Part shown: positions 1,515 to 41,552 of the stretch, one piece after another | How positions within the stretch are numbered: the first letter of the stretch is position 1 | Layout: each line of letters starts with the position of its first letter | From: Hyphomicrobiales bacterium | Lineage (GTDB): Bacteria; Pseudomonadota; Alphaproteobacteria; Rhizobiales; Rhizobiaceae | Assembly (NCBI GenBank): GCA_900470155.1 | Contig: UBZT01000009.1 | Span: 496,001 to 560,000 of the forward strand | Length of the DNA: 64,000 nucleotides | Direction of reading: 5' to 3' | Notes under the pieces: generated by a model | What the model was told of the DNA's origin: nothing | Database searches by the model: none | What the model saw: only the letters and a program-made list of their open reading frames with translations | Program-made: the position numbers and the translations under genes

Positions 1515-2720
1515 ATGACCGCAACAGCCCCCTGGACCACCCGCAAGCCGACCGCCCTCCTCGTTCTTGCCGACGGGACTGTCATCGAAGGTCACGGCAT
1601 CGGCGCAACCGGCAAGGTCCAGGCCGAGGTCTGTTTCAACACGGCGTTGACCGGTTATCAGGAAATCCTCACCGACCCGTCCTATCTCGGCCAGATCGTC
1701 ACCTTCACCTTCCCGCATATCGGCAATGTCGGCACCAATGAGGAAGACATCGAGGACCTGACACCGGCTGCCCGTCACGGCGCCGTCGGCACGATCTTCA
1801 AGGCAGACATCACCGAGCCATCCAACTACCGCGCCGCCTCCGATCTCGATGGCTGGCTGAAAGCCCGCGGCATCATTGGCCTTTCCGGCGTCGACACCCG
1901 CGCACTGACCGCCTGGATCCGCGAGAATGGCGCGCCCAACGCCGTCATCGCCCATGACCCGAACGGCGTCTTCGACATCGAGGCCCTGAAGGCAGAGGCC
2001 AGGGCCTGGAGCGGCCTCGAAGGTCTCGACCTCGCCAAGGTCGCCACCTCCGGCCAGTCGTCGGTCTGGAGCGAGAAGGACTGGTCCTGGGAAAACGGCC
2101 ACACCACGCTCGGTGAAACCGAAGCCAAATATCATATCGTCTGCGTCGACTTCGGCGTGAAGCGCAATATCCTGCGCCTGTTTGCCGGCCTGGATTGCAA
2201 GGTGACGGTCGTGCCGGCCTCGACCTCGGCCGAGGATATCCTGGCGCTGAACCCAGACGGCATCTTCCTGTCGAACGGCCCGGGCGACCCCGCAGCCACC
2301 GGCGAATATGCGGTTCCGGTCATCCAGAACCTGGTCAAGAGCGAAAAGCCGCTTTTCGGCATCTGCCTTGGCCACCAGATGCTCGGCCTGGCACTTGGCG
2401 GCACCACCGAGAAGATGCACCAGGGCCACCACGGCGCCAACCACCCGGTCAAGGATTTCACCACAGGCAAGGTCGAGATCGTCTCGATGAACCACGGCTT
2501 CGCGGTCGACTCGAAGTCGCTGCCGGAGAGCGTTGAAGAGACTCACGTTTCCTTGTTCGACGGCACCAATTGTGGTCTGCGCCTCAAGGGCAAGCCGGTG
2601 TTTTCGGTCCAGCATCACCCGGAAGCATCGCCCGGCCCGCAGGACAGCCACTACCTGTTCCGCCGCTTCATCAACATGGTGCGCGAAAACAAGGGCGAGC
2701 CGGCATTGGCCGAGCGCTAA
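1515..2720 (+). CDS. carA: Carbamoyl phosphate synthase small subunit
   Basis: A 401-residue CarA. It is the glutaminase subunit that feeds ammonia to CarB to make carbamoyl phosphate for pyrimidine and arginine synthesis. The N-terminal CPSase domain carries FNTALTGYQEILTDPSY; the C-terminal class I amidotransferase domain shows SNGPGDP, the nucleophile Cys at about residue 284 in FGICLGHQ, and the His/Glu pair in HHPEASPGP near residues 368-370. The start at 1515 is preferred over an in-frame upstream GTG because AAGGAACGACC stands directly before it. carB lies about 11 kb away rather than next to carA. Confidence 0.97.
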   Translation: MTATAPWTTRKPTALLVLADGTVIEGHGIGATGKVQAEVCFNTALTGYQEILTDPSYLGQIVTFTFPHIGNVGTNEEDIEDLTPAARHGAVGTIFKADITEPSNYRAASDLDGWLKARGIIGLSGVDTRALTAWIRENGAPNAVIAHDPNGVFDIEALKAEARAWSGLEGLDLAKVATSGQSSVWSEKDWSWENGHTTLGETEAKYHIVCVDFGVKRNILRLFAGLDCKVTVVPASTSAEDILALNPDGIFLSNGPGDPAATGEYAVPVIQNLVKSEKPLFGICLGHQMLGLALGGTTEKMHQGHHGANHPVKDFTTGKVEIVSMNHGFAVDSKSLPESVEETHVSLFDGTNCGLRLKGKPVFSVQHHPEASPGPQDSHYLFRRFINMVRENKGEPALAER

Positions 2721-2742
2721 AAACTCTCAGTTTACGGTAAAA

Positions 2743-2763
2743 AGCCCGCGCCAAACGCGGGCT
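2743..2763 (+). terminator. Intrinsic terminator after carA
   Basis: AGCCCGCG (2743-2750) pairs with CGCGGGCT (2756-2763) over a CCAAA loop and is followed by ATTTTATT. It sits 23 bases beyond the carA stop codon. Confidence 0.85.
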
Positions 2764-2826
2764 ATTTTATTGCAAGAAAAAACAACCCATGATTTCATTC
2801 CATTCGGGGAAACACGGGGGGAAATC

Positions 2827-4350
2827 ATGAAACGATCGATTGTTCGCTGGCTGGCTGCCATACTATTGGCCATGTCTCCTGCATTATTTTTTTGGCCCGC
2901 CGAAGCCGCCAACGACGTCTTCAGGGGACGGGATGATACGAGTTGCGATACGGTCCAGCGCTTGGATGACAACGGCCATGAAACGCTAGCAACAAGCAGC
3001 TACGATTGCATGACCGCCCGTTACGCTCTTCCAGGCGCATCCGGAACGAGCCGCACAACAAGCTACGATGTGGCATTCCTTGAATATGGCGGCCCGTCCG
3101 GGGGGCGCCTGGACGAGCGCCAATGGCAGGCGACCAGCCATCTCCTCGAAAGCAAGCGAAAGAAATATGTCGTAGTCTTCATTCATGGCTGGCACCACAA
3201 CGCCAACGTGAAGGATCGCGACGTTAGCCGGATGCACGTGTTCCTGAGCTACGCGCGAAGCTTCTTGAACCAACGGCCGGCCTACCGAGACACCGATCTC
3301 GTCGGCATCTACGTCGGCTGGAACGCTGCCGTTCACCGCGAGGGATACAAATCCTTCTTCGACGTCTTGAGCTATTCAAGTAAAAAGAAGGAAAGCGAGC
3401 GCGTAGCTCCGGCGGTATTCTCGGATCTCCAGAAGATAGCCGGGAAACTGACCCAAGACACAGGCAATCCGGCCGCAGACAAGATGCTTGTCATTGGTCA
3501 TTCCTTCGGCGGCAACATGTTGGCAACGGAACTCGACGACAGGATTGGCGAGCAGCTCGACAATCATCGGAACGGCGAGATCATGCCGCCCCCGCTCGGC
3601 GACTTGACGGTCATTATCAATCCCGCCGGAGAAGCCCGAAAATTTAATGATATTCAACGCAAGATCCGGACGCAGGGACTGACATTCCCGACAACGCAGC
3701 CTCCCGGCTATCTGTCGCTGACGTCCACGACAGATTGGGCACCGGAAGAATTGTGCAAGGATACGTCTGACAAGAAAAAGTCGGAACCGAATGCGCAATC
3801 CGATAAAAAAGAATGCTTGGCAGCCATCGATTACGACCGCGCTACCGGCCAGGTATTCGGCGCGGGACAGCGCTTCATGAATTTCAAATGGTCGAAGGAA
3901 GACACCACTACCATCGGCCATTTCCGGCCTAGCAAGGCTCAGCCCTACGGCGCCACACATGATTTGACGGGCATCCAAGGAAGCCGATTCAGCACGAACT
4001 ATCGCAACGGGATCAATCCCGATGCGTCCGCATGTGTGAAAGCACAGCCTTGGCTCCCGACGCTACGAGACAACAAGTCCAACTGGGATACCAGATACGA
4101 TGGCACGCTTCGTGCCGGAATGTTCGATCCCCGGGAGGGCTACCGTACAGAGTACCAATTGAGAGCCTATCTATATCGATCCAAACACGCGACATCCTAT
4201 GCACGCATAGGCCACGAACCGTATTGGAACATTCGCACGCTTCCAAATCTGATCCAAGGCCACAACGACTTCGTCAGTTACATAGTGATGTGCATGATCA
4301 ACCAATTCGTACTAGACGATCCGGGCGGCCTAAAAGCTGGAAGAACCTGA
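2827..4350 (+). CDS. Secreted alpha/beta hydrolase
   Basis: A 507-residue exported protein. The first 27 residues form a Sec signal peptide with a likely cleavage after AEA. An alpha/beta hydrolase core follows: the strand-loop VVVFIHGWHHN near residue 115 forms the oxyanion region, and VIGHSFGGN gives the nucleophile Ser at about residue 226. A C-terminal His/Asp pair cannot be assigned by eye. The substrate is unknown; lipase/esterase-like is the most that can be said. The start has a strong GGGGGG run seven bases upstream. The gene stands alone, and its base composition and codon choice look less GC-biased than its neighbours, which suggests a later acquisition. Confidence 0.75.
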   Translation: MKRSIVRWLAAILLAMSPALFFWPAEAANDVFRGRDDTSCDTVQRLDDNGHETLATSSYDCMTARYALPGASGTSRTTSYDVAFLEYGGPSGGRLDERQWQATSHLLESKRKKYVVVFIHGWHHNANVKDRDVSRMHVFLSYARSFLNQRPAYRDTDLVGIYVGWNAAVHREGYKSFFDVLSYSSKKKESERVAPAVFSDLQKIAGKLTQDTGNPAADKMLVIGHSFGGNMLATELDDRIGEQLDNHRNGEIMPPPLGDLTVIINPAGEARKFNDIQRKIRTQGLTFPTTQPPGYLSLTSTTDWAPEELCKDTSDKKKSEPNAQSDKKECLAAIDYDRATGQVFGAGQRFMNFKWSKEDTTTIGHFRPSKAQPYGATHDLTGIQGSRFSTNYRNGINPDASACVKAQPWLPTLRDNKSNWDTRYDGTLRAGMFDPREGYRTEYQLRAYLYRSKHATSYARIGHEPYWNIRTLPNLIQGHNDFVSYIVMCMINQFVLDDPGGLKAGRT

Positions 4351-19849: not shown

Positions 19850-21391
19850 ATGCTGGATCAAGACGTGATGCCTGAGCGGGCCACCCGCCGCGAATGGATT
19901 GGACTTCTGATCCTTTCCATAGCCTGCCTGATCTACTCGATGGACCTTTCGGTGCTCTTTCTTGCCATGCCGGCAATTGTAGCCGATCTCGATCCATCCG
20001 CCACCCAACTGCTTTGGATCAATGACATCTACGGCTTCATGGTCGCAGGCTTCCTCGTCACGATGGGAACGCTGGGTGACCGGATCGGCCGCAGGAAAGT
20101 CCTGCTGATTGGCGCGTTCTTCTTTGCCGTGGCATCGGTCTTTGCTGCCTTTGCCAACACGGCCGACATGCTGATCATCGCTCGTGCCCTGCTCGGCATC
20201 GCCGGCGCCACCATTGCGCCCTCGACCCTGTCGCTTGTCGTCAATCTCTTCCGCGACGAGGCGGAACGCAATCGCGCCATCAGCATATGGGGAACCGCCT
20301 TCGCTCTGGGCGGCCTTGTCGGCCCGCTGATCGGCGGCGTTCTGCTGGAGTATTTCCACTGGGGATCGGTCTTCCTGATCAATGTTCCGATCATGGCCTT
20401 GCTGCTCGCAACCGCGCCCTTCTTGCTGCCGGAATATCGCGATGAGAAAGCATCCGGCATTGATCTTCCCAGCGTGGCCCTGTCGTTGATGACCGTGCTG
20501 CCGATCATCTACGGCTTCAAGAAGATGGCTGCCGATGGCTTCATGCCATCCCAGATTGTTCCTATCCTCGGTGGATTGCTGGTCGGCTACTTTTTTGTCC
20601 GTCGTCAAAAGACCCTCGTCCACCCGTTGATCGATCTCGCCCTGTTCAAGATTCCTGCCTTCACCGCTTCCCTGTTGGTGAACCTCTCCGGCGTCTTCTT
20701 CATCTTTGGCATCTTTCTCTTCCAGAATCTGTTCCTCCAGTTGGTCATCGGCCTAACGCCCTTGCAGGCCGCCCTCTGGTCAATTCCCTCTTCGCTGGTC
20801 TTCACGGTCATGTCCTTTCAGGCCTACCGCGTCACCAATCACCTGGGACCGGTTCGAACCGTGCTGCTGGGTCTTGTGGTCAACGCGGCGGGTGCGGCCA
20901 GCATGGCGGTCGCCGCCTACTATTCGAGCCTGGTCGGCGTCCTGTTTTCCAGCATGATCATCGGCCTGGGCTTCGTGCCGGTAATTCTGACCACCACCGG
21001 GCTTATTGTCGGCACGGCACCGCCCGAACGCGCCGGCTCGGCATCGGCCATCTCCGAAACCAGCGCTGAGTTCGGGGGCGCATTGGGGGTGGCCGTTCTC
21101 GGCAGCCTCGGAACACTGGTCTATCGCATGGTGATGTCCGGCGCGGACCTTTCCGGGCTCGACAGCCAGTCTGCAATGGCGATCACGTCGTCGCTGGCCA
21201 GCACGGTTGAGATTGCCCAGAGGCTCGGTGGCCCCACGCCGACATGGCTGACTGAGGCGCGCGCGGGCTATGCACTCGGCTTCGCCATCTGTTGCGCCAT
21301 TGCCGCCGTCACACTTCTGGTCCTCGCCGCCGTCGCCAAACGCGTCTACGACAGCGCACATATCGACGAGACGGCACTTCAGGCACATTGA
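19850..21391 (+). CDS. MFS transporter, DHA2 (14-TM) family
   Basis: A 513-residue inner-membrane exporter with about 14 hydrophobic segments, as in QacA/SmvA-type drug:H+ antiporters. The motif-A region is GDRIGRRKVLLIGAF between TM2 and TM3, and motif C appears as GLVGPLIGGVLLEYFHW in TM5. The N-terminus RREWIGLLILSIACLIYSMDLSVLFLAMPAI is also typical of the SmvA branch. It likely expels quaternary ammonium or dye-like compounds, by family analogy. GGGAGGAAGAG precedes the ATG. It is 84 bases from the ArsR-AHSA1 operon and may share its regulator, but no second operator was seen. Confidence 0.92.
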   Translation: MLDQDVMPERATRREWIGLLILSIACLIYSMDLSVLFLAMPAIVADLDPSATQLLWINDIYGFMVAGFLVTMGTLGDRIGRRKVLLIGAFFFAVASVFAAFANTADMLIIARALLGIAGATIAPSTLSLVVNLFRDEAERNRAISIWGTAFALGGLVGPLIGGVLLEYFHWGSVFLINVPIMALLLATAPFLLPEYRDEKASGIDLPSVALSLMTVLPIIYGFKKMAADGFMPSQIVPILGGLLVGYFFVRRQKTLVHPLIDLALFKIPAFTASLLVNLSGVFFIFGIFLFQNLFLQLVIGLTPLQAALWSIPSSLVFTVMSFQAYRVTNHLGPVRTVLLGLVVNAAGAASMAVAAYYSSLVGVLFSSMIIGLGFVPVILTTTGLIVGTAPPERAGSASAISETSAEFGGALGVAVLGSLGTLVYRMVMSGADLSGLDSQSAMAITSSLASTVEIAQRLGGPTPTWLTEARAGYALGFAICCAIAAVTLLVLAAVAKRVYDSAHIDETALQAH

Positions 21392-21404: not shown

Positions 21405-22880
21405 TCAGACCAGCCGCAACAGCGTTTGGACCGCCTGCATGTCCGACTGAAACCGCGCCACTTCCCGTTGTCGCATCACTTCGTCGGGAATCCGCAGCAG
21501 ATAGGAGGGATGGACGGTGACAAACAGGATCTGTCCCTTAGCAAGCGCGACGGGATGGCCACGCACATCCTGCAGTGGTTTGCGTTCGCCTGTCAGGGAG
21601 AAGTAGGCGCTCCCGCCCATGGCGACCACGATCTTCGGCTTGACGATCTCCAGTTCGCGCGCCAGCCACCAGCGGCAATGTTCGATCTCCCCGACATTCG
21701 GCCGCTGATGGATCCGTCGCTTGCCACGCATCTCGTATTTGAAATGCTTGACCGCATTGGTCACATAGCTCCGTTCGCGCTCGATACCGGCAGACGACAG
21801 CGCGTGGTCGAAAACCGTGCCGGCCGGGCCGACAAAAGCACGACCGGCCAGATCCTCCTGATCCCCCGGTTGCTCGCCGACAAACATCAACGCGGCATCG
21901 ATAGGCCCTTCGCCAAACACCGTCTGGGTGGCGTGGCAATGCAATGCACAGCGGTCGCAGGTCTCCGCTTCGCGCTTCAGCAAGGCCAGTGCGTCTCGCG
22001 GAGCACGACTGAGAGCCCCCTCCTCATCATCCGCCTTCTCCTGCCATGCAGCCTGTAGTCGTTCATGGAAAGCCGGAGGCTGGCTCGCCTGACGTGCCGC
22101 CATCTCGGCCACCCTTTGCTCGGCACCCGCAATCAGCCCGGGGATCAGATCGGCCTCCGGCATGTTTTTCCAATATTTCTTCGGCATCTCCGCCTGCATG
22201 GCTTTGATCTTCAGCCGTGCCGGATTGAAAATATTGGCAAAATAGGTTCGCCAGAGTTCGTCCGTCGCATCCTCGGCCTGTGGTCTTTCCGCGGGCACGG
22301 TCGATGTTTCCAGGCTGCGGCCATTCCACATCGCCGATCCCTTGGGCGTGGCGATCAGCCAATCCATATCGGTGAACCGCCGCTGGAAAAAGGGCGCGGT
22401 CCGGGCCACGATGAAATGCTCCGGTTCGAACCAGGCGACAAAAGCCCGGCGCCCGCCCGCCTGCCCCGGGGGCACCTCCCTAAACCGCACGAACGCCGTC
22501 ATCTTGTGCGCATCGCGGCGAACATTCTTGATCAGTGCCTTCAACTGTATGATGTCCGGATCGGCAGCATCGCCCAACAGCGCCCGATCGCGCTGCAGTC
22601 GCCATAAAATGCGGTAGAGCAATGAGAACCTATCCGGCTCGCTGTGGCACAGCGCAGCCTCGGCTGCCTGGACAAACGCTTTCGGCACGCTGAACGCTGC
22701 GGACATGCTATCAGCCGGGCCTTGAGCGACGGGCACCTGATTGATGCCGAACAGATCCTCTGCCCCGCCTGATGTCGTCCAGCGCACGTCATCAGGATGG
22801 ATTTGCGCGGCCAGCAGGGCGCGCGCGGCATCACGCCATTCGCCGAGATTGCCCCGTCCCTCGAGTGAGACTGCTCGCAT
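21405..22880 (-). CDS. udgX: TIGR03915-UdgX fusion: uracil-DNA-binding repair protein
   Basis: A 491-residue two-domain protein. Residues about 1-240 form the TIGR03915/DUF4130 repair-associated domain. Residues about 295-490 form a UdgX-type uracil-DNA glycosylase: GEQPGDQEDLAGRAFVGPAG (335-354) is the family-4-like active-site motif, cysteines at 308 and 311 with later Cys402 are candidates for iron-sulfur ligands, and GKRRIHQRP holds the UdgX-specific KRRIH loop with His391. In Mycobacterium UdgX this His bonds covalently to the uracil site, so the protein stays attached to DNA. HPSYLLR (457-463) closes the site. The start at 22880 overlaps the stop codon of the radical SAM gene by four bases. 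Confidence 0.93.
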   Translation of the reverse strand: MRAVSLEGRGNLGEWRDAARALLAAQIHPDDVRWTTSGGAEDLFGINQVPVAQGPADSMSAAFSVPKAFVQAAEAALCHSEPDRFSLLYRILWRLQRDRALLGDAADPDIIQLKALIKNVRRDAHKMTAFVRFREVPPGQAGGRRAFVAWFEPEHFIVARTAPFFQRRFTDMDWLIATPKGSAMWNGRSLETSTVPAERPQAEDATDELWRTYFANIFNPARLKIKAMQAEMPKKYWKNMPEADLIPGLIAGAEQRVAEMAARQASQPPAFHERLQAAWQEKADDEEGALSRAPRDALALLKREAETCDRCALHCHATQTVFGEGPIDAALMFVGEQPGDQEDLAGRAFVGPAGTVFDHALSSAGIERERSYVTNAVKHFKYEMRGKRRIHQRPNVGEIEHCRWWLARELEIVKPKIVVAMGGSAYFSLTGERKPLQDVRGHPVALAKGQILFVTVHPSYLLRIPDEVMRQREVARFQSDMQAVQTLLRLV

Positions 22881-24109
22881 CAGAGCAAGGACAGTTGTTC
22901 CGGCTCTGGCGCAAACATGGCCCGCAGGTCGGAACGCTCCAGTGTCCGGTGTGGCGACCACCCCTCCGCGACGATGAACGGCCGCACCTTCTTGAGAACG
23001 ACGCCCAAGCGTGCCAGGTCTTCCAGACGCACGGTGCGGTGCCGGCGCGCGGCCAGCAGAGCTTTGACCGTCTTCGTACCGAAACCCGGTACCCGCAAAA
23101 GCGTCTCCCGATCGGCCGTGTTCACGTCGACCGGGAAATCCTGCCGATTGGCCAGTGCCCAGGCGAGCTTGGGGTCGAGTTCGAGGTCAAGCATGCCGTC
23201 GACGCGCGCAGACGTGATTTCGGCAACCGAAAAGCCATAGAACCGATAGAGCCAGTCGGCCTGATACAGCCGATGCTCACGCACCAGCGGCGGCTTGATC
23301 AGCGGAAGATGGCGCGAACTGTCCGGGATCGGGCTGAAGGCCGAATAGTAGACCCGCTTGAGCGAATAGCTGCTGTAGAGCCTGGCACTGGAACCAAGGA
23401 TCGTCGCATCATTTGCGCCATCTGCACCGACGATCATCTGTGTGCTTTGCCCGGCCGGGACGAACCGTTTGCGTCGGCCGGTGTGGGTCGCCTCCCCTGC
23501 CGCCTCGATCTTCAAGCGCAGGTCGGCCATCGATCGACGGATCCCAGCCGGGCGCTTCTCAGGCGCATAGTTCTGCATGCCCTGGTCTGTCGGCAGCTCG
23601 ACATTGATCGACAGACGGTCGGCATAAAGCCCGGCCTCCTCGACCAGACGGGCTGACGCCTCGGGAATGGTCTTCAGATGAATATAGCCCCGAAAGCCAT
23701 GTTTGGTGCGCAGGTCGCGGGCAATCTGCACCATCTCGGCCATCGTATCGTCCGAAGACCGAATGATGCCGGACGACAAAAACAGCCCTTCGATATAGTT
23801 GCGACGATAGAACTCGATGGTCAGCCAGACGACTTCATCGGGTGTAAAGCGCGCCCTTTCGACATTGCTCGACGACCGGTTGATGCAATAGGCGCAGTCA
23901 TAAATGCAGAAGTTCGTCAGCAGGATCTTCAACAGGGAAATACACCGACCGTCCGGCGCATAGGCATGACAGATACCGGCGCCTTCCGTCGAGCCGAGCC
24001 CGCCGCTTATCGAAGAATCGCGCTTTGTGGTTCCGCTTGAGGCGCAGGAAGCATCATATTTGGCCGCATCCGACAGAATGGCGAGACGTTCTTTCAGTGT
24101 CTTCCTCAT
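22880..24109 (-). CDS. Putative DNA-repair radical SAM protein
   Basis: A 409-residue protein of the family that travels with UdgX fusions (TIGR03916 type). The radical SAM cluster is CIYDCAYC, with Cys68, 72 and 75 (CxxxCxxC), and the C-terminus carries a helix-hairpin-helix DNA-binding segment RVPGFGTKTVKALLAA (about residue 335). It presumably acts on damaged DNA using an S-adenosylmethionine radical; the substrate has not been established to my knowledge. The ATG at 24109 is favoured over a GTG at 24121 because that GTG overlaps the LexA box, and because the promoter predicts a transcript start only a few bases from 24109. It is first in a two-gene operon with udgX. Confidence 0.9.
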   Translation of the reverse strand: MRKTLKERLAILSDAAKYDASCASSGTTKRDSSISGGLGSTEGAGICHAYAPDGRCISLLKILLTNFCIYDCAYCINRSSSNVERARFTPDEVVWLTIEFYRRNYIEGLFLSSGIIRSSDDTMAEMVQIARDLRTKHGFRGYIHLKTIPEASARLVEEAGLYADRLSINVELPTDQGMQNYAPEKRPAGIRRSMADLRLKIEAAGEATHTGRRKRFVPAGQSTQMIVGADGANDATILGSSARLYSSYSLKRVYYSAFSPIPDSSRHLPLIKPPLVREHRLYQADWLYRFYGFSVAEITSARVDGMLDLELDPKLAWALANRQDFPVDVNTADRETLLRVPGFGTKTVKALLAARRHRTVRLEDLARLGVVLKKVRPFIVAEGWSPHRTLERSDLRAMFAPEPEQLSLL

Positions 24110-24115
24110 AGGCTT

Positions 24116-24130
24116 GTTCACTATATGTTC
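24116..24130. promoter_or_regulatory. LexA (SOS) box of the radical SAM-udgX operon
   Basis: GTTC (24116-24119), seven bases, GTTC (24127-24130) is an exact match to the alphaproteobacterial LexA site GTTC-N7-GTTC. On the minus strand it overlaps a -10 hexamer TATAGT (24125-24120); a -35 TTGACG lies at 24146-24141 with a short 15-base spacer. Repressor binding here would block RNA polymerase. Confidence 0.85.
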
Positions 24131-24294
24131 TTTTTTCCGTCGTCAAGATTGAAAGGCTGTGACGGGCTACATTCCCGATCGCTCGTAGAGGAAAACCTGG
24201 CAGACATCTGCGCGAGCGACAGAAGAAAAAGTGACATCGCCACCGACGCGAATGCAACTCGAAGCAGTAGACAGAAGCGAGGAACAATCGCCAT
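24121..24294 (-). CDS. Possible small secreted or membrane peptide, doubtful
   Basis: A 57-codon frame beginning MAIVPRFCLLLRVAFASVAM with one hydrophobic segment resembling a signal peptide. GGAGAGG lies seven bases upstream and a TATAAT sequence (minus strand, 24357-24352) could start a transcript. Against it: the frame ends inside the LexA box of the next gene, there is no recognisable family, and no good -35. Confidence 0.2.
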   Translation of the reverse strand: MAIVPRFCLLLRVAFASVAMSLFLLSLAQMSARFSSTSDRECSPSQPFNLDDGKKNI

Positions 24295-40983: not shown

Positions 40984-41126
40984 TTTCATCCGGACTCGCT
41001 TCGCATGTGCGGCCCGGCAGGTATGCCGGGTTTTTTCGTTCAGCTTACGTTCAGCCATCCGAGGCTAGTGTTTTCTCATCGCTCGTTAACCAAGAGCAAG
41101 CCGCTTTGGCATGAGGAACTGACCTT

Positions 41127-41552
41127 ATGATGAAAATCGCAAAATACGCCCTTCTCGCGACCGTCGTCACCTTAACTCCGATCATGGCATCGAGCCAGGC
41201 TGAGGCGCGCGACCGCTACCGTCACCATCGGGACAATGATGCGGTTGCCCTTGGCGTTCTCGGCCTCGCCACCGGCGTGATCGTCGGCTCGGCCATCGCC
41301 AGCCAGCCGCAGCGCCGCGTCTATGTCGAACCCGGCCCGGTGTATGACGAGCCGGAATATTACGTCGACGACTATCCGCCGCCGCCCCCGCCGCGCCGCA
41401 GCGTCTACCAGGAGCGCCGTGTCAGCTATGGCGTCGAGCCTTGGACCCCGGAATGGTACGACTATTGCGCGAACCGTTATCGCAGCTTCAATTCGCGCAC
41501 CGGCACCTTTGTCGGCTATGACGGCATGTCGCATTTCTGCACGGCCGGCTGA
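41127..41552 (+). CDS. BA14K-family secreted protein
   Basis: A 141-residue exported protein. A signal peptide covers about the first 27 residues (SSQAEA-RD). After a hydrophobic Gly/Ala segment (VALGVLGLATGVIVGSAIAS) and a Pro-rich, acidic linker, the C-terminus reads WYDYCANRYRSFNSRTGTFVGYDGMSHFC, the BA14K/lectin-like domain found in Brucella and rhizobia; its two cysteines probably form a disulphide. The function is unclear; Brucella BA14K is an immunoreactive lectin-like protein. TGAGGAACTG precedes the ATG. Confidence 0.85.
   Translation: MMKIAKYALLATVVTLTPIMASSQAEARDRYRHHRDNDAVALGVLGLATGVIVGSAIASQPQRRVYVEPGPVYDEPEYYVDDYPPPPPPRRSVYQERRVSYGVEPWTPEWYDYCANRYRSFNSRTGTFVGYDGMSHFCTAG

Follow-up and report, generated by a model that had tools for sequence, protein, structure and literature searches.

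The 64,000-nt stretch of DNA analyzed here (the window) carries, on its minus strand, a radical SAM gene followed by a gene that fuses a DUF4130 domain to a UdgX domain, with a predicted LexA operator and promoter-like elements directly before the first start codon. The features are as follows:

24141..24146, minus strand: −35-like element TTGACG, read from the sequence; a similar element stands in relatives
24116..24130, minus strand: predicted LexA operator GAACATATAGTGAAC (GTTC-N7-GTTC on the plus strand), from pattern and comparison
24125-24120, minus strand: −10-like element TATAGT, inside the operator, read from the sequence
24110..24115, minus strand: 6-nt gap between box and start codon, read from the sequence
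22880..24109, minus strand: radical SAM gene, TIGR03916, 409 aa, from profile match, alignment, and structural model
21405..22880, minus strand: DUF4130 (TIGR03915)–UdgX (TIGR03914) fusion gene, 491 aa, from profiles and motifs

On the minus strand the radical SAM gene comes first, and its stop codon (22882-22880) shares one base with the ATG of its partner (22880-22878) in the string TGATG. This replaces the ATGA overlap given in the initial annotation; among relatives the −4, ATGA-type overlap is commoner, occurring in 74 of the 144 loci where a fusion was found, and the −1 form occurs in 43. Because the genes are adjacent and overlapping, they are probably translationally coupled. The next gene downstream, an MFS transporter (19850-21391), lies on the other strand and points toward the operon; greA (from 24559), also on the other strand, points away from it. 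Candidates for a third operon gene were set aside: the most recurrent neighbors look like local synteny (e.g., the greA region) or antisense frames, and no neighbor family occurs in more than 25 of 114 loci (80 named relatives plus 34 loci outside the class, with clusters judged by eye).

The exact GTTC-N7-GTTC box that had been proposed at 24116-24130 is found there, 6 nt before the radical SAM ATG, and the TATAGT beneath it and the TTGACG at 24146-24141 are likewise as described. At 15 nt, the spacer between these hexamers is shorter than is usual for sigma-70 promoters, and a consensus promoter scan requiring a spacer of 16–18 nt does not report the site. The bare pattern GTTC-N7-GTTC is about as frequent in the window as chance would give (3 sites, 2.13 expected), and nearly so genome-wide (156 versus 137 for the reversed control); we therefore judged the site by its conservation, and the proof is comparative. 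A tighter form, GAACATWTNNTGAAC, has a single occurrence in the 5.48-Mb genome, at this operon. The same genome encodes LexA (PF01726, 63.6 bits), and a GTTC-N7-GTTC-type box, GAACACATATGGAAC, lies 46 nt before the lexA start; recA too has a GTTC-N7-GTTC, which precedes its earliest possible start by 31 nt and the likely RecA ATG by about 127 nt. Since the lexA and recA boxes lie farther from their starts, the close arrangement of box and start codon is not common to these two SOS genes. Elsewhere in the window, the pattern occurs at 4216, within an open reading frame at 2533-4350, and at 41038-41052, 74 nt before a 141-aa open reading frame (41127-41552), an occurrence that alone is at chance level. 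One GAAC-N7-GAAC site in the same genome (locus L143, position 2711) was considered as an imuA site and rejected: the frame 275 nt downstream encodes a ParE-like toxin (PF05016).

Across Alphaproteobacteria, the box is a nearly constant companion of the radical SAM gene. A scan of related genomes, the check suggested in the initial annotation, finds the exact pattern at this place in 78 of the 80 named relatives, chosen as the best of at least 589 confirmed; the two misses (L050 and L051) read GAAC-N7-GAAT, one mismatch away. A class-wide sample of 289 genomes gave 18 radical SAM matches over the cut-off, and with the own genome set aside the box is present in 16 of 17. We pooled the 80 named relatives, these 17 loci, the 29 best others from the family search (which gave 93 matching genomes, so that the family loci are the best-scoring ones), 28 readable loci from the phylum search, and 6 of 14 further same-order loci: 160 in all, and 149 non-redundant after identical ones were dropped. 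Within the 100-nt zone before the radical SAM gene, the box occurs in 143 of these 149 loci, counts that are not independent as the loci are related by descent. Hits are about 490 times denser in this zone (146 in 14,900 positions) than elsewhere in the loci (20 in 996,387), and a reversed-pattern control gave 4 hits in the zone. Besides L050 and L051, the misses are L145, L176, L237, and L241. L237 and L241 carry GTTC-N7-GTTC farther upstream, at −97 and −99. A LexA search in the genomes of three of the misses gave a match for L237 (G513) and none for L145 (G396, only 92% complete) or L176 (G802).

Outside the class, the operator changes type and keeps its place. A phylum search beyond Alphaproteobacteria found 35 genomes over the cut-off and 34 readable loci (L174 was left out), which appear to be mostly beta- and gammaproteobacterial. 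An exact CTGT-N8-ACAG precedes the radical SAM gene in 25 of the 34 (reversed control, 0), and a form with one change, CTGT-N8-CCAG, in 5 more. We take CTGT-N8-ACAG to be the LexA operator of these lineages; in one of the genomes (G658) it also stands directly before lexA. With a CTGT-type operator at the same place, the regulatory link thus survives the change of LexA motif. In one further genome (G753) the sequence before the radical SAM gene is divergent, and inspection by eye suggests a likeness to the sequence preceding the lexA of that genome, itself a weak match. In family f186 (3 of 34 loci: L207, L219, and L230), no LexA-type site was found before the radical SAM gene, but both of the two genomes tested have LexA, with the palindrome TTAGTAGTAATACTAA just before lexA; SOS control is therefore not universal. 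The three f186 loci share a conserved palindrome before the radical SAM gene, TCTCAT-N3-ATGAGA, possibly the site of another regulator or a hairpin. For the operon in the window, comparison of these upstream regions makes SOS control close to certain.

The ATG at 24109, which had been placed near the expected transcript start, is the start kept in relatives. The alternative GTG at 24121 was rejected: although in frame here, it sits within the operator, and relatives whose box and ATG are 2, 4, or 5 nt apart do not keep it in frame. By the rule-of-thumb distances from −10 and −35 elements to the transcript start, transcription in the window would begin near 24113 (from the −10 element) or 24111 (from the −35 element), for a predicted leader of about 2–4 nt. 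The 6-nt gap between box and ATG is too short for a Shine–Dalgarno site. Short gaps are the rule: the distance is at most 7 nt in 130 of the 143 alphaproteobacterial loci with a box, most often 2 nt (55 loci) or 6 nt (25 loci). It is 9 nt or more in 13. A script picked out Shine–Dalgarno-like leaders in four of these (L146, L156, L159, and L239), and inspection by eye added two more (L151 and L161), so the near-leaderless form, though common, is not universal.

A TTG[AC] element lies 16–19 nt before the box in 99 of the 143 loci, and its position varies in step with that of the start codon. In 111 loci the start is an ATG and a TTG[AC] element lies 13–24 nt before the box (the others being without such an element); the distance from element to ATG is 35–38 nt in 99 of them. 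Where the element lies 16 nt from the box, the gap to the start codon is mostly 4–7 nt; where it lies 18 nt away, the gap is mostly 2–4 nt. The two distances compensate (r = −0.80; 104 loci with the element at 15–20 nt and a gap of at most 10 nt, kinship ignored), and none of 5,000 permutations gave as small a variance of their sum (same 104 loci, kinship ignored). This geometry, 35–38 nt in 99 of 111 loci, lends strong support to the earlier proposal that the mRNA is likely leaderless, or nearly so: a near-leaderless start is well supported by comparison.

All three protein families of the operon are matched well, and no feature was found that would put it outside NCBIfam TIGR03916, TIGR03915, and TIGR03914. 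The first gene product scores 566.3 bits against TIGR03916 (rSAM_link_UDG; cut-off 343.5). Its CxxxCxxC motif (C68/C72/C75) is invariant in 42 aligned sequences, as are C22, C47, H48, and C56, which would fit a second cluster. A structural model (mean pLDDT 83.7; below 50 at residues 24–45) places its barrel close to lipoyl synthase 4u0o (Z 16.6, rmsd 3.6, 225 aligned residues), with HydE, MqnE, and biotin synthase tied as matches. The fold is held in common with lipoyl synthase, HydE, and biotin synthase at Z of about 15–17, with only 8–17% identity in the aligned part; the protein differs from those barrels in its extra invariant C22, C47, H48, and C56 and in a C-terminal helix-hairpin-helix (HhH)-like region. 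For the C-terminal HhH domain named in the initial annotation, the HHH_3 match falls below the Pfam cut-off (22.1 versus 27), and sequence similarity of the region to ComEA- and RuvA-type HhH proteins is weak (E 0.01 to 0.07). To our knowledge, no substrate is known for TIGR03916 or TIGR03915.

The second gene product matches both TIGR03915 (DUF4130; 231.7 bits) and TIGR03914 (UdgX; 323 bits) far over the cut-offs. The core of the operon had been described as radical SAM plus UdgX fusion; the fusion is present, but the kept partner is DUF4130. A DUF4130 domain adjoins the radical SAM gene in 193 of 194 loci (duplicates kept), the exception being L161, where the contig ends and DUF4130 was not read. 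In 145 of the 194 a UDG domain is fused to DUF4130, in 1 it is separate, and in 47 none was found; two of these 47, L033 and L150, are open at the locus end. The separate case (L202), with DUF4130 and UDG domain in separate open frames, could reflect a frameshift or a gene that has been split. The box is kept in 120 of 122 non-redundant alphaproteobacterial loci with a fused UDG domain and in 21 of 25 with DUF4130 alone. The constant partner of the radical SAM protein is DUF4130, and the fused UdgX is a frequent but optional extension.

Aligned to 6iod, the UdgX domain has the GEQPG motif A, the KRRIH loop with the crosslinking His, and the HPS motif B. It shares these motifs with solved UdgX structures (6ail, 6iod, and others; E = 3e-41); 6ail and 6iod presumably come from Mycobacterium smegmatis. 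The solved chains are single-domain proteins of about 205–229 residues, whereas the domain here is fused behind DUF4130 and encoded next to a radical SAM gene. The crosslinking His is present in 143 of 144 readable fusions (L228 was unreadable and left out of the count); the remaining fusion, L205, is without it. The biochemistry of UdgX is known, and we know of no settled cellular role for it.

For DUF4130 itself, the model (mean pLDDT 86.9) yields structural matches of modest strength. The top VIA match is a PAP phosphatase (Z 8.0, rmsd 4.6, 176 aligned residues), RecJ follows (Z 7.5, rmsd 3.7–3.8, 180 aligned), and both may mean only a common arrangement; Cdc45 chains are also among the top matches (Z at most 8.0), and the best Foldseek E value is 0.05. 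Sequence comparison gave no support for a DHH/RecJ link, with an HHalign probability of 0.1% against the RecJ of the same genome, and other weak Pfam matches are confined to 1 or 2 of 42 members.

Part of this picture was known in kind. We take COG4277 to be the radical SAM/HhH family of this operon. PMC8565304 places a COG1573–COG4277 operon of Bacteroidetes under SOS control, citing earlier reports (Erill 2016, da Rocha 2008) for Verrucomicrobia and Alphaproteobacteria. By that account, the main claim of the initial annotation, SOS control of the pair, is strongly supported by our comparison but is not a new link. The Bacteroidetes operon likewise consists of two genes, a UDG-family protein and COG4277, in the LexA network, according to PMC8565304; here, by contrast, the alphaproteobacterial direct repeat serves as the LexA motif, the operator almost abuts the start, and DUF4130 is constant. 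A literature search with most subscription papers outside it returned no account of the near-leaderless geometry at this operon, of CTGT-type operators before the radical SAM gene, or of DUF4130 as the constant partner. It found no paper joining UdgX with radical SAM or naming TIGR03916, and COG4277 appeared in one paper. The accessible portions of PMC7739468, PMC13384398, PMC6473078, PMC9380542, and PMC1839093 do not describe the operon, and a Streptomyces LexA list includes a radical SAM gene.

We read the locus as a LexA-repressed, damage-inducible two-gene DNA-repair operon in which the radical SAM–DUF4130 pair acts on DNA damage and UdgX is optional, a reading to which we assign a probability of roughly 0.6. 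LexA bound to an operator that overlaps the −10 element in this way would obstruct RNA polymerase directly; with the start codon so close behind the operator, the mRNA would start at the ATG or within a few nucleotides of it. On LexA cleavage, the radical SAM protein and its constant DUF4130 partner would be made, the former perhaps docked on DNA by its helix-hairpin-helix region, and together they may act by radical chemistry on a lesion in DNA or on an adduct bound to it. A fused UdgX with its crosslinking His kept would remove uracil and hold the abasic site covalently, and could bring the enzyme to abasic sites or shield them. In lineages where UdgX is not fused, the radical SAM–DUF4130 core persists, mostly with the SOS box, which argues that the job of the core is independent of UdgX.

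That last observation bears on two other accounts of function. SOS-regulated uracil base-excision repair, with UdgX clearing wrong bases left by error-prone polymerases and the radical SAM protein as an accessory, is in keeping with the complete UdgX domain (GEQPG, KRRIH, and HPS) and with PMC8565304; yet we consider it rather unlikely, given that DUF4130 stands without a UDG domain in 47 of 194 loci (two of them, L033 and L150, cut by the locus end) and that 21 of the 25 non-redundant alphaproteobacterial loci lacking the domain still keep the box. Alternatively, radical SAM–DUF4130 could resolve the covalent UdgX–DNA adduct, making the operon an abasic-site cap together with its remover. The adjacent, overlapping genes, the frequent fusion of UdgX to DUF4130, and the near-invariant crosslinking His (143 of 144) favor this account, but many loci keep radical SAM–DUF4130 without a fused UdgX, as judged at the locus only, and we regard it as improbable. 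A coincidental box before a constitutive operon would accord with the frequency of the bare pattern in window and genome, which is at or near the chance level, but it is extremely improbable: 143 of 149 loci conserve the box at this position, and outside the class a different type of operator takes its place.

A more specific proposal, less likely than not, is offered tentatively. Radical SAM–DUF4130 may be a distinct, deeply conserved SOS repair enzyme whose radical chemistry on DNA either reverses a lesion directly or frees a protein bound to DNA, for example UdgX. In this proposal UdgX would be an optional module for targeting or shielding, and an operator merged with a near-leaderless start would allow immediate onset at LexA cleavage. 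Regulation kept across two LexA motif types suggests that the substrate arises under SOS-inducing damage, and the constancy of DUF4130, not UdgX, makes radical SAM–DUF4130 the pair to purify and delete first. What becomes clearer here is how tightly the switch appears to be built into an almost leaderless start, and that UdgX is an optional part of the system.

The operon is patchy in distribution and partly plasmid-borne. Of 199 family genomes, 93 have radical SAM matches, in a few cases only as fragments; the single genome of the same genus in this sample gave no match. Operon genes are found in 158 plasmid records, of which 142 are predicted to be non-mobilizable. A phage origin was considered for 10 matching phage records and rejected: eight come from human faecal samples and have no annotation, and one of the two records filed as "Acinetobacter phage MD-2021a" was examined and looks bacterial. 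In that record (L250; CAKLQH020000003.1, 88425-97570), the radical SAM gene and a "probable DNA metabolism protein" lie beside glyQ and glyS.
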